A stretch of 64,000 nucleotides of DNA. Origin: Alcanivorax sp. (GTDB lineage: Bacteria > Pseudomonadota > Gammaproteobacteria > Pseudomonadales > Alcanivoracaceae). The notes beneath the pieces were generated by a model that made no database searches, had not been told where the DNA came from, and saw only the letters and a list, made by a program, of their open reading frames with translations. Both the position numbers and the translations under genes were made by a program. Location: positions 1 to 64,000 of the forward strand of contig JAIUME010000003.1 of the NCBI GenBank assembly GCA_022565695.1, given 5' to 3'. Position 1 is the first letter of the stretch; every line of letters begins with the position of its first letter. Below are positions 11,177 through 14,775 of this stretch, one piece after another.

Positions 11177-13030
11177 TCAATGCCCGGGGAGTTGCAGCGC
11201 GAAGCAGGTGCCTGCCTCACCGGGCAGCCACAGGGTCCGGGCACCAATGGCTGCGGCCCGGTTCTGGATATTGGTGAGCCCGCGACCGCCACGCCCGTTC
11301 TGTTGCGCATCGGGTGAAAACACCTGGCCGTTGTCGCAGAGCTGGATGGTGATGCCATCGCCATCACGGCGAGTGCTGAAGTGCAGGGTGTCGGCCCGGT
11401 TATGTTTGAGAATATTGGTGATCACTTCCTGGATGATGCTCAGTACATGCTGCACGGCTTCCGGGGTCAGCCAGGGCAGAGCCGGCAGGGTGTCCATCTG
11501 CCAGTGCAGTGACAGGCCGGCGGCATCGAGCCGGGGTTGCAGGCGATGGCGGAGCGTGGCCAGCGATGTGGTCAGATCGCCATCCACCGGGGTCAATGAA
11601 TCGATCGTCAGTTTCAGTTCGTCGATACTTTCTTGCAGGGTACGGGTCAGAGTGTCCTCGTTGCCCCGATGTTGCTGCGCCATACGCAAGGCACTGGTCA
11701 GGGTGGCCCCCAGGCCGTCGTGCATGTCGCGCATCAGGCGTTGCCGTTCCCGGAGCAGCAGGTCGCGGCGTTCGGCGTCGCGGAGCTTGCGATAGCTCTC
11801 TTCGAGTTCCGCCTCACGTTGCGCCAGCGTATCAGCGAGAATGCGGCGGTGGTTTTCCAGCGCATCCACACCCAGCCGGTAACGCCGGTGCAGGATATAA
11901 CTGAACAGCATGCAGAAGGTGATTTCCCAGTACACCAGCAGATAAGGGTGCGCCAGATTGATCTGGTAATGCATCAGCATCAGGTCGTGGATCGCCAGCG
12001 GCAACCCGATCAGGTTGCAGACCGCCAGCACCTGGGCGGCACGCACGCCGCTGCGCCAGGCGATCACGGCCACCAGCGGGAAGGCCCCCAGGGACAACAG
12101 CAGGGTAATGCTGTAGATCGCACCGGCCAGGGAAAGGATCTGCGCCGAGCCGTGCAGCCACGGCAGGCTGGTCAGCAGTGCCAGCCCCAGGGCGCCGCCC
12201 AGTGTGTATTCCAGCCAGGGCAGGCGTCGCTGGCACAGGCGCAGGTTGAACAGCAGGCTGATCAGGATCAGCCCCAGCATCGCGTTGATGGTCAGCCAGC
12301 CGAACCATGCCGAGGACATCAGCCGGGTGTCCAGCGGCCCGGCAAAATGCAGGCTGCGGAACGCGAACAGCAGTGCCGCCAGCAGGAACAGGCGCGACAG
12401 GGTGCGCTCGGCAGGGGATTGCCGCAGTGTCAGCCCGAACACGGCCAGGGTGATGAAAACGATGGCAATGGCGCTGGGCAGCACGGCCTGCAACAGTAGC
12501 CGGGTCTGGTAGCGCCACAGCAGGGCATCAGCGTCGCCGATATACACACGGCTCAGGCCGCCGCCCAGGCCCGCCAGGGAATCCATGCGCAGCAGCAGCT
12601 CGGCGGGCGCACCGCTGCCATCGCGGCGATCCAGTGGCAGCCATACCGGCCGGTTGAAGCCGTTCCAGTACAGGTCGCCGGTGGACTGCCAGAGCAAGCG
12701 GCCGTCGCCGTAGATTGCGAGCTGGCCGACCGTCTGCCAGCGTGGCAGGTACAGTGCCGTACCGGTCGGGGTTGCCTCCGTAGACAGTCGGTACCAGGTG
12801 GTGACCACGCCGCTGCCCTGACCATCCCGTGGCAGGGCCACATCCGGCAAGGACACGGTCTGCCAGCCGTTATCCGGCAGGGCGGGCGCCTGTGGCGGCG
12901 GTGCGTGAATCGACGCGCTGGCGTCTGACTGTGTCAGCCGCTCCACCTGGCGCTGCGGCTCGCTGGCCTGGACGCCGCTCCATGCCAGGCAGAGCCCGAT
13001 CAGTATTATCAGCCGGCCCCGCGCGACCAT
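11177..13030 (-). CDS. Membrane histidine kinase, 7TMR-DISM type
   Basis: This is a 617-residue sensor kinase. A signal-like hydrophobic segment (residues 5-22) precedes an extracytoplasmic beta-sandwich (about 50-170, WYRLS...LYLPRW) like the 7TMR-DISM extracellular domain. Seven or so membrane helices follow (about 180-385). A short coiled coil leads to the HisKA_3 phosphoacceptor, His437 in RDMHDGLGATLTSAL. The ATPase domain shows EVITNILKHN and GRGGRGLTNIQNRAAAIGA. The gene starts two bases after the response regulator stop codon, so the pair is one operon. Signals for such DISM sensors are often carbohydrates or small carboxylates, but this one is unknown. Confidence 0.9.
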   Translation of the reverse strand: MVARGRLIILIGLCLAWSGVQASEPQRQVERLTQSDASASIHAPPPQAPALPDNGWQTVSLPDVALPRDGQGSGVVTTWYRLSTEATPTGTALYLPRWQTVGQLAIYGDGRLLWQSTGDLYWNGFNRPVWLPLDRRDGSGAPAELLLRMDSLAGLGGGLSRVYIGDADALLWRYQTRLLLQAVLPSAIAIVFITLAVFGLTLRQSPAERTLSRLFLLAALLFAFRSLHFAGPLDTRLMSSAWFGWLTINAMLGLILISLLFNLRLCQRRLPWLEYTLGGALGLALLTSLPWLHGSAQILSLAGAIYSITLLLSLGAFPLVAVIAWRSGVRAAQVLAVCNLIGLPLAIHDLMLMHYQINLAHPYLLVYWEITFCMLFSYILHRRYRLGVDALENHRRILADTLAQREAELEESYRKLRDAERRDLLLRERQRLMRDMHDGLGATLTSALRMAQQHRGNEDTLTRTLQESIDELKLTIDSLTPVDGDLTTSLATLRHRLQPRLDAAGLSLHWQMDTLPALPWLTPEAVQHVLSIIQEVITNILKHNRADTLHFSTRRDGDGITIQLCDNGQVFSPDAQQNGRGGRGLTNIQNRAAAIGARTLWLPGEAGTCFALQLPGH

Positions 13031-13032
13031 GA

Positions 13033-13671
13033 TCAGGATGTCCTGTCCAGCAGCTTCAGGCGGTGGGCCTTGCTGACGGCACCTGCCCGCGAGCGCACAT
13101 CCAGCTTCTGGTAAACGCGCCGGATGTAAGTCTGTACCGTCCACGGCGATACCCCGAGCTGCTCGGCGATATCAGCCATGACATAGCCCTGGCTGATCAG
13201 CGTGAGCACCGTATGCTCGCGGTCGGACAGTGCAGCATGGGAGGTGTCGGCCGGTGGGCAGATGTCGGTCAGCAGGTGGCGGGCGATCATCGGGCTGATG
13301 GGCGAGCCGCCGGCATGCAGCATGCGGAGATGTTCAGGCAGGCTGGCGGGCAGGCTTTCCTTGAGCAGGTAACCGGCGGCCCCGGCCCGAATGCTGTCCA
13401 GAACGCGTTGCTCGTCAGCAAACAGGGTGGCGACCATGATCGCGCAGTCTGGCCAATGCTGCCGTGCGGCCCGGATGACCTCTATCCCGGAGCCATCCGG
13501 CAGACCCAGATCGACCAGCAGCACATCACAGGCAGGCCGTGCCAGCAGCGCATGGGCGCCGGCACAGTCTGTGGCTTCGGCATCAAGCCGGATGTCATTG
13601 GTGGCGGCAACCGCAGCGCGCACGGCGGCGCGGAATGCCGGGTCGTCCTCGACCATGGCCAGGCTGATCAC
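13033..13671 (-). CDS. NarL/FixJ-family response regulator
   Basis: The 212-residue regulator has a receiver domain with acidic pocket EDD (residues 8-10), phospho-Asp54 in LLVDLGLPDG and Lys in YLLKES. A LuxR-type helix-turn-helix follows (LSDREHTVLTLISQGYVMADIAEQLGVS, VQTYIRRVYQKL). It pairs with the downstream HisKA_3 kinase. A 266-bp structured palindrome lies 37 bp upstream of its start, so the promoter is either within or displaced by that element. Confidence 0.93.
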   Translation of the reverse strand: MISLAMVEDDPAFRAAVRAAVAATNDIRLDAEATDCAGAHALLARPACDVLLVDLGLPDGSGIEVIRAARQHWPDCAIMVATLFADEQRVLDSIRAGAAGYLLKESLPASLPEHLRMLHAGGSPISPMIARHLLTDICPPADTSHAALSDREHTVLTLISQGYVMADIAEQLGVSPWTVQTYIRRVYQKLDVRSRAGAVSKAHRLKLLDRTS

Positions 13672-13707
13672 GTCCGGTCCCCCCGGAAGTTGTCGTTATT
13701 TTGCCTT

Positions 13708-13973
13708 GGGCACCTATGAATAACGCCTTGCGTCCTCTGCGTGGCCTGAAGCGTGCAGATGCAAGGCGCGTCGCGCAGGGAATGGCCGTCGCCCTTTTCA
13801 AGCGGCGCAACGCAGCAGATGTGCGCTTCAGGCCACGCCCTGCGGGGCGTTCGGGCTGGCCCGCACTCTGCGTTGCAGTTTCTCGACATAGCGCCACTAT
13901 GCCTTCGAAACGGCGCCTTGATTGCGGGCCAGCCCGAACGCCAGAGGACGCAAGGCGTTATTCATAGGTGCCC
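13708..13973. repeat. 266-bp three-armed palindromic element (MITE-like)
   Basis: The ends are 32-bp perfect inverted repeats (13708-13739 and 13942-13973, starting GGGCACCTATGAATAACGCC). Inside are two further inverted pairs: 13739-13753 with 13824-13838 (15 bp, GCGTGGCCTGAAGCG) and 13847-13865 with 13923-13941 (19 bp, GCGTTCGGGCTGGCCCGCA). The arms are contiguous, so one strand folds as a closed three-way junction. The second arm contains a further CATAG/CTATG hairpin. No coding capacity and no clear target-site duplication was found. It could be a non-autonomous mobile element, a structured RNA or a recombination site. Confidence 0.8.
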
Positions 13974-14018: not shown

Positions 14019-14678
14019 TCAGGCCCCGCGCAGCTTTTCTACGAAGGCGTTTTCACGCTCCAGCAGGCTGGTAAAGGTCGGGCGCGCCATCACCTTGTCC
14101 ACATGGGCCGCCAGCGCAGGATAGTGCTGTGGGTCCAGGCGCTCGCCGCCGTGGGCAAAGTTGACGAACTGTGACACGACGGCAATGTCGGCGATGGAAA
14201 ACTGCTCGCCCGCAAACCATTCACGGCCCTTGATCTGGCTTTCCAGGTAGGCGAAATGCGGCGGCAGCTTTTCGCCCAGGGCTTTTGCGATGCGTTCTTC
14301 ATCGCTCGGTTTGCCCATCAGTTTCATGATCACCCGGTTGCGGAACACGGTAAACGTGGTCAGTGGCGCCAGCTCATAGTCGGCGTACTTCTCCAGCCAC
14401 AGGGCGTGGGCGTAGTCATGGGCGTCCATGGGGTAGAGCGACGGGGTTTCCGGAAAGGCTTTTTCGACATAGGCGCAGATGACGGCGGAATCCGCCAGCA
14501 GCTGCCCATCATGCTCCATGGCGGGGATACGGCGCAGCGGGTTGATGTTGCTGTAGTCTTCGGGAGCATTGAAGGGATCGACATGCACCGATTCGAAGGG
14601 GATCTCCTTTTCGGCCAGAAATACCCGGGCCTTGCGAACAAAGGGCGACAACGCCGCACCGTAGAGTTTGATAGCCAT
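14019..14678 (-). CDS. Glutathione S-transferase family protein
   Basis: This 219-residue protein has the GST two-domain plan. The N-terminal thioredoxin-like fold begins MAIKLYGAALSPFVRKARVFL and carries the conserved cis-Pro (RRIPAMEHDG) and ADSAVICAYVE. The helical C-terminal domain contains FSIADIAVVSQF. A serine in SPFVRKA could be the catalytic residue, as in beta/theta-like classes. The ATG at 14678 places the beta-strand at the start; the frame stays open to 14768 but that lead has no homology signature. The substrate is unknown, and detoxification of electrophiles is the general role. Confidence 0.9.
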   Translation of the reverse strand: MAIKLYGAALSPFVRKARVFLAEKEIPFESVHVDPFNAPEDYSNINPLRRIPAMEHDGQLLADSAVICAYVEKAFPETPSLYPMDAHDYAHALWLEKYADYELAPLTTFTVFRNRVIMKLMGKPSDEERIAKALGEKLPPHFAYLESQIKGREWFAGEQFSIADIAVVSQFVNFAHGGERLDPQHYPALAAHVDKVMARPTFTSLLERENAFVEKLRGA

Positions 14679-14775
14679 GCCGGTCCATACCTTATGTCTG
14701 CGTGATTGATGCGAGGTATCAGAACAAGGCATGGCCCGGCGGTCAATGGCAGGAAGGGGTGACCGCATTTTCTCC

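Follow-up and report, generated by a model that had tools for sequence, protein, structure and literature searches.

What kind of sequence is the strongly folded stretch that separates a glutathione S-transferase (GST)-like gene from a pair of two-component genes in the Alcanivorax sp. contig JAIUME010000003.1? A first-pass annotation of the window, by which we mean the whole stretch of 64,000 nucleotides that was analyzed, had described a perfect 32-bp outer stem enclosing two abutting inner stems, and had suggested an unrecognized MITE type, a structured RNA, or a site for a recombinase or integrase. The architecture and the gene context are both borne out: the two arms of the outer stem are exact reverse complements, the three helices abut at a junction whose bases can be assigned to either helix, and a response regulator gene and a histidine kinase-like gene lie next to the element on the minus strand (Table 1). 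The structure is far beyond chance. A random 64-kb sequence at the window's GC content of 61.9% would contain about 5e-12 perfect 32-bp inverted repeats within 250 bp, and shuffled sequences never folded equally well (RNA, z = -13.2 on the plus strand and -15.9 on the minus strand, 0 of 100 shuffles each; DNA, z = -12.1, 0 of 200 shuffles). Both strands fold alike because the element is nearly palindromic; it is 70% identical to its own reverse complement across almost its full length, and hairpin A resembles an inverted hairpin B. The element contains short overlapping ORFs only, with nothing evident encoded, and the Rfam covariance models give no family at the gathering score in 13708-13973, the only families found in the window being three tRNAs.

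Table 1. Features of the element and its surroundings in the window
Feature	Coordinates	Strand	Remarks
Histidine kinase-like gene	11177..13042	-	C-terminal ATPase domain; gene ends at 11177, and 13042 is not a called start
Response regulator gene (receiver and LuxR-type HTH)	13033..13671	-	Downstream of the insertion
Left target-site copy, CTTG	13705..13708	+	CTAG in the empty sites
Outer stem, 5' arm, 32 bp	13708..13739	+	Exact inverted repeat
Mobile element proper	13709..13972	.	264 bp between the target-site copies; delimited from the target duplications and the empty sites of relatives
Left terminal inverted repeat, GGCACCTATGAATAACGCC, IS5-like	13709..13727	+	Resembles the ends of IS5-family ISs in relatives
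Hairpin A	13739..13838	.	15 perfect basal pairs (14 if the shared junction base is assigned to the outer stem)
Junction linker between hairpins, CCTGCGG	13839..13845	.	CCTNCGG in most copies of alignment A1
Hairpin B	13846..13942	.	20 perfect basal pairs (19 if the shared junction base is assigned to the outer stem)
Outer stem, 3' arm, 32 bp	13942..13973	+	Exact inverted repeat
Right terminal inverted repeat	13954..13972	-	Perfect mate of the left repeat
Right target-site copy, CTAA	13973..13976	+	CTAG in the empty sites
GST-like gene	14019..14768	-	Upstream of the insertion, on the same strand as the two-component genes

The element in the window starts directly after TATGCT; the same spacer in relatives carries GGTATGCTAGGG. 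Judged by its sequence, TATGCT may be a -10 box; a scan of the window's spacer for consensus promoters found none. If the -10 reading is right, the mRNA of the two-component operon would start with the folded element. The insertion would be expected to alter the transcription of this operon.

Copies, empty sites and insertion sequences with matching ends

Within its own genome (3.53 Mb in 22 contigs) the element occurs only as the copy in the window; the two matches recorded there are this copy and its own reverse complement. Matches at E <= 0.001 were found in 27 of 57 genomes, the own genome included, and nine of these have 13 or 14 matches each. Because no more than 13 candidates were scored in any genome and fragments are included, these are lower bounds rather than exact copy numbers. 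Six of the seven genomes of the own genus match, with 1 to at least 13 matches each, and a genome from another family of the same order (G038) has at least 13. The search that the first-pass annotation had proposed, with the 20-mer GGGCACCTATGAATAACGCC, returned nothing: there were no exact matches in the genome_contigs collection, which may omit the own genome, and with up to three mismatches only the two arms were found in the own genome. A 24-position pattern taken from the core recovered 104 stretches from the same collection, and 79 of the 80 examined as loci fit the core model. Judged by record titles, their hosts include Alcanivorax, Pseudomonas saliphila, two Gilvimarinus species, Bermanella, and metagenome-assembled genomes labeled Xanthomonadaceae, Thiotrichaceae and Aeromonadales; the core is thus present in several gammaproteobacterial families. 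No match was found to the exact core pattern in viral contigs, to the window copy by distant blastn in the phage collection, or to the window copy and a second copy (L010) by distant blastn in the plasmid collection. The copies are scattered through their genomes rather than arranged in arrays, and the one-contig genome G006 has 14 full-length copies by the filter used, with a median identity of 94%. The first-pass annotation would have given up its reading for a single copy without similar elements in relatives and without compensatory changes; the single copy is real in the own genome, but relatives do carry the element and compensatory changes exist.

The surroundings could be read for 113 distinct copies, and none of these is located within an ORF. 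The neighboring genes are codirectional for 45 of these copies, divergent for 34, convergent for 18 and undetermined for 16; among the 51 neighboring gene pairs of the window, 31 are codirectional, and the convergent and divergent ones number 10 each. An in-house ORF caller, trained on the window, served to determine placement, disregarding ORFs mostly within the element and excluding 45 incomplete copies as well as copies near locus ends. In six loci (L006, L021, L081, L107, L109 and L111) the adjoining predicted ORF stops about 4 bp inside the border of the element, and the TAG or TAA of the target looks like the stop codon of that ORF.

The first-pass annotation had also called for a check of empty sites and target duplications, and both were found. 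The orthologous spacers between the GST and regulator genes of G002, G004 and G005 lack the element, i.e., all three directly comparable spacers (L153, L154 and L155) are empty. They have the sequence GGTATGCTAGGGC in two cases and GGTATCCTAGGGC in one, and read TATG-CTAG-GGCAACA and TATC-CTAG-GGCAACA, respectively; on the minus strand of the window the site reads TATGC-TTAG-(element)-CAAG-GCAAAA. In L156 and L157 (G003 and G006), where the two genes are further apart, the comparison reported no match for the element region. The 4-bp flanks on the left and right are identical in 24 of 78 copies, the window copy being among the 78, against a mean of 5.5 and a maximum of 14 in 5000 shuffles of the flanks. 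The commonest identical pairs are CTAG, CAAG, CTTG and TTAA, and the duplication is of a 4-bp YTAR type; a YTAR-type target preference is known for IS5 elements beyond the MITEPsy1 work taken up below. No flank is common to any two of the 78 copies, a set obtained from 96 places by dropping 17 with one end or part of the core missing and the near-duplicate L061; three copies were shifted by one base and four were read by eye. An automatic parse, with several misread ends, had given 30 of 79 copies (17.6 expected) for a 2-bp duplication and 1 of 79 for a 3-bp duplication, and was superseded by the 4-bp reading.

Ends found in the element family recur in two insertion sequences (ISs). The first, about 1.15 kb long, is found in G022 and G057, with incomplete stretches of it at the ends of G021 contigs; it has the ends GGAACCTCTGAAAAAC and GGAAGGTCTGAATAAC and encodes a 313-aa IS5-family transposase (NF033581, 353 bits at a cut-off of 140). 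Ten 97% identical matches to this protein, covering residues 1-313 or 2-313, are present in G057. In the best alignments its end matches those of the elements with the commonest end type (T1, see below) over about 19-22 bp at 95-100%. Eight fetched loci have both IS ends in the expected places (L128, L129, L137, L142, L146, L148, L150 and L151), and the flanks of seven, read by eye, are identical 4-bp sequences, CTAG, TTAG or TTAA; two of the loci, L142 and L146, seem to be duplicates of a single stretch. The second IS (L135) is about 1.35 kb long, encodes a 383-aa transposase that matches the same NCBIfam model, and carries a different end type, T2 (CAGGCTGCTGAAAAAC), with CTAG on both sides. 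The similarity between the element and the ISs is confined to the outer 20 bp or so; when the 32 copies of alignment A1 were compared with both ISs by blastn (E <= 0.01), no match exceeded 30 bp. Because only these outer positions match, the core of the element is no deletion product of these ISs; its interior does not correspond to an internally deleted IS, and the sequences compared do not indicate descent from these ISs.

A search for the IS transposase with G022 and G057 as positive controls gave no match in the own genome, G006, G033 or G013; G003 has a 49% identical transposase without these ends, and G025 has fragments only. Among 13 host genomes of distant copies, a search without a positive control gave weak matches in two. 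None of the transposase loci examined in G006 bears ends of the element type. Other candidate partners were rejected: DUF4096 transposases (two matches, in one of 12 genomes, G006) and DDE_Tnp_1 transposases (six matches, in three of seven genomes) lack the ends of the element, and a pair of ends 1.27 kb apart in L049 encloses no recognizable transposase-like ORF and looks like two solo ends. G006 also contains three copies of another DUF772 transposase gene (L126, L136 and L141), each with a 454-aa frame and with different ends.

In our assessment the element is very probably a non-autonomous IS5-type transposable element (MITE) that inserted at CTAG between the GST and response-regulator genes, presumably with the help of an IS5-family transposase provided in trans. 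Its perfect 32-bp arms include an IS-like end of about 19 bp; it is short (264 bp), free of a transposase, present in multiple copies in relatives and as a single copy in its own genome; sites without it exist in relatives; and it has ends and target in common with an IS that encodes an IS5-family transposase. Against this reading count the 54 of 78 copies without identical 4-bp flanks, the frequent absence of a partner transposase from present-day hosts, and the restriction of the similarity with the IS to the ends. The duplication is evident for the family, but the flanks of the window copy itself, CTTG and CTAA, are not identical. The element very likely works like an IS5 MITE, and an IS5-family transposase would be expected to move it in trans. 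The first-pass suggestion of an unrecognized MITE type thus agrees with the copies, the empty sites, the target duplications and the ISs with matching ends.

The conserved fold and its alternative explanations

The covariation that the first-pass annotation had asked about is present in alignment A1, which holds 32 copies less than 90% alike drawn from 64 full-length ones. Of 2907 cells 96.7% pair, and 68 of 91 pairs show changes on both sides, including 28 of 31 in the outer stem (helix 1), 13 of 22 in hairpin A (helix 2) and 15 of 19 in hairpin B (helix 7). Double changes fill 364 cells against 75.6 with shuffled partners, and pairing falls to 33-45% when the partner is slid by 1-3 columns; these controls are generous, in that the structure was derived from the same sequences and the shuffles ignore relatedness. 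On the evidence of this alignment the fold is under strong constraint. In 22 disjoint comparisons of closest copies, a change in one arm alone was counted 96 times, a compensatory double change 38 times and any other double change twice. The doubles are far above coincidence and the singles are many, which makes both copying between the arms and selection possible.

Over all 91 predicted pairs G-T combinations outnumber A-C combinations by 183 to 49, with the excess in the hairpins (124 to 8 in hairpin A, 41 to 15 in hairpin B). When only the 81 pairs with a Watson-Crick share of 75% or more are counted, the numbers are 34 and 31 (outer stem, 7 and 15; hairpin A, 19 and 5; hairpin B, 8 and 11), where the cut removed ten pairs and was chosen after the count over all pairs was known. 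The structure had been predicted as RNA on this strand, which in itself favors G-U over A-C. As the two combinations are about equal in the mostly Watson-Crick pairs, though not over all pairs, the outer stem is likely constrained at the DNA level, and its perfect palindrome would be a feature of the DNA; the hairpins are less clear, and hairpin A leans towards RNA.

This leaning bears on the second suggestion of the first-pass annotation. We consider it quite unlikely that the element is primarily a conserved structured RNA, either an sRNA or a leader element, that is mobile only incidentally and whose pairs are kept by selection on the RNA. The abundance of double changes, the G-T excess over the 91 pairs, one T-G pair that is present in all 32 copies, and the conserved unpaired positions within both hairpins would all fit such an RNA, and at the window locus the element would fall in the 5' leader of the operon. 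However, the G-T excess is what a prediction in RNA mode favors and nearly vanishes in the 81 mostly Watson-Crick pairs, the near-palindromic element folds alike on both strands, the 113 placed copies have no single gene arrangement, and there is no Rfam match. The structured-RNA suggestion is not required and keeps a small probability: the very strong covariation and the G-T preponderance in the hairpins, above all in hairpin A, stand, but the outer stem consists of transposon ends without a G-U excess. A module domesticated by the host as a terminator, RNase III site or attenuator, and kept for its effect on neighboring genes, is unlikely as well. The strong fold and the persistence of copies in genomes without a visible partner transposase speak for it, and such effects are reported for other MITEs, namely Correia and ERIC, in the available text of PMC10969869; but three relatives lack the element at the window locus, the number of matches varies from 0 to at least 13 between congeners, and a terminator would be expected between convergent genes, a preference that we do not see (18 of 97 placed distinct copies).

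By far the least probable in our view is a site for a recombinase, an integrase (as in attC) or a single-strand transposase (as in REP/REPIN elements). The cloverleaf-like fold of the single strand and the likeness of hairpins A and B in inverted orientation are compatible with such a site. REP hairpins, in the REPIN/RAYT system, are associated with a Y1 transposase and are not known to be accompanied by a target duplication, but the present family shows a 4-bp duplication of the kind made by DDE transposases and shares its terminal repeats of about 20 bp with ISs that encode such a transposase. In addition, the copies are scattered, not arrayed, and no plasmid, phage or viral match was found at the sensitivity used. 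The duplicated flanks thus lead away from the recombinase or integrase site that the first-pass annotation had also proposed.

Core, differing end types and variant copies

In a comparison of 100 distinct cores, the one core is bordered by eight different end types, of which six recur in at least two cores. T1 (GGRNCCTCTGAATAACTCC), the type of the Alcanivoracaceae, is found in 70 of the 100; T2 (CAGGCTGTTGAAAAACCCC) in 13, from G017, some Alcanivorax, Gilvimarinus and a Pseudomonadales record; T3 (GGGCACCTCTATTAATTG) in five, from Thiotrichaceae, Bermanella, Aeromonadales and other records; T4 (GGAACCTCTGATTAATTATG) in three, excluding L085, whose nearest match is T4 without being of the type; T5 (GGAAGCTCTGATCAATTCG) in three, with a Xanthomonadaceae record; T6 (GGACCCTCTGATTAACTCC) in two; and T7 and T8 in one each, from P. 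saliphila and G038, respectively. The core in L093 fits none of the end types. T1 and T4 to T8 may be gradual variants, much of CTCTGA being common to them; T2, the CAGGCTG type, is clearly different from the others and has its own IS, the second one described above. Wherever both ends could be read, in 96 cores, the left and the right end have the same nearest type; the remaining four cores are cut by locus ends.

In a tree of the 100 distinct cores, 30 of whose 97 inner branches are well supported, the distribution of T2 needs four changes, at least three of them forced by well-supported branches, which means three or more gains or losses of T2. The Gilvimarinus copies are nested, with well-supported branches, in an Alcanivoracaceae group, which suggests from the core sequences that they were passed horizontally. 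As a pattern, the separate evolution of the ends and of an interior that forms a conserved core is well supported.

Shorter and longer variants of the element also occur. Copies with both ends and hairpin A only were found in L082, L205, L257, L261 and L267, and copies with both ends and hairpin B only in L096, L097, L102 and, as a second copy, L089. Such single-hairpin copies are present in several genomes, so that the element can spread without either one of its hairpins, unless the single-hairpin copies formed in place. Two long copies, in L065 (G006, 1637-1748) and L100 (G003, 1652-1763), have the same 27-bp sequence, inverted, in both hairpin tips, and by its sequence this module looks like the result of copying between the hairpins. 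The long copy in L065 and the hairpin-B-only copy in L102 (G003) have similar flanks on both sides and probably go back to a single insertion that lost or gained sequence at its site. G006 and G033 contain solo ends without a second end; solo ends of about 20 bp and of the GGGAACCTCTGAATAACTCC type lie at L049 1624 and 2870, L034 3032, L035 3011, L051 2969 and L053 2898, with no evident mate or core nearby, and the one at L049 1624 starts at the stop codon of a gene. In L039, L041 and L042 (G013) and L046 (G003) the draft contigs stop about 20 bp or less from the end of the element, a pattern that assembly collapse of a longer or an identical repeat sharing this end would produce.

One could go further and regard the core as a selfish unit that parasitizes IS5-family transposons generally and switches both of its ends together to suit the transposase of its host, with the palindrome as the means, through copying of one arm into the other. 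We put this forward tentatively and think it rather doubtful. A change in one arm would be copied to the other by hairpin-templated repair or replication, and the ends would stay matched while drifting or jumping to a new specificity. The number of end types, the absence of mixed ends among the 96 copies, the three or more forced changes of T2, the preponderance of compensatory over other double changes, and the 27-bp module in both hairpin tips count in favor of such a unit. Alternatively, the matching of the outer 20 bp may be explained by selection exerted by the transposase.

Relation to known systems

The usual view of a MITE is that of a remnant of a single parent IS. In the present family, a folded core of about 225 bp that is unlike both ISs sharing its ends has been retained in several gammaproteobacterial families, with terminal repeats that vary. 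If this is confirmed, the non-autonomous element would be a long-lived lineage and its transposases would be exchangeable, and the 100 distinct cores would form a natural data set on how palindromes keep their arms matched. An intergenic repeat family of Alcanivorax and its relatives is thereby accounted for; the published literature that we searched, which extended to papers outside subscription, contains no recognized description of it.

The NF033581 ISs of the Alcanivoracaceae (L129, L128, L137 and others, and L135) have the terminal 20 bp or so and the CTAG/YTAR-type target in common with the element; unlike the element, they are about 1.15 or 1.35 kb long and encode a transposase, their two ends are not identical to each other (L129 has 3 mismatches over 19 positions), and their interiors show no similarity to it over 30 bp. 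Correia, ERIC and similar bacterial MITEs have other ends and targets than the present element. They resemble it, by the available text of PMC10969869, in being short, mobile and palindromic, with foldable transcripts and with effects on neighboring genes; an inner pair of hairpins common to different end types, as found here, is not mentioned for them in that text.

The closest parallel is MITEPsy1 of Pseudomonas syringae, which is 100 nt long and paired with ISPsy2 of the IS5 family (PMC3189936, in the part available). Like our element it has IS5-type ends (GGAAGGTCTGAAAAAGCC and GTATCCTCTGAAAAAGCC, similar to those of ISPsy2), a 4-nt CTAG or YTAA duplication and no transposase, and because its transposition in vivo was demonstrated by trapping, the type of movement that we propose is known from experiment. 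The two differ in length, about 265 bp here against 100 nt there (52-99 nt for MITEPsy1 homologues, which are 71-91% identical), the comparison being with the published description of MITEPsy1 rather than its full sequence. The three-way junction and the exchange of ends that we describe for the Alcanivorax family are not mentioned for MITEPsy1 in the available text of that paper.
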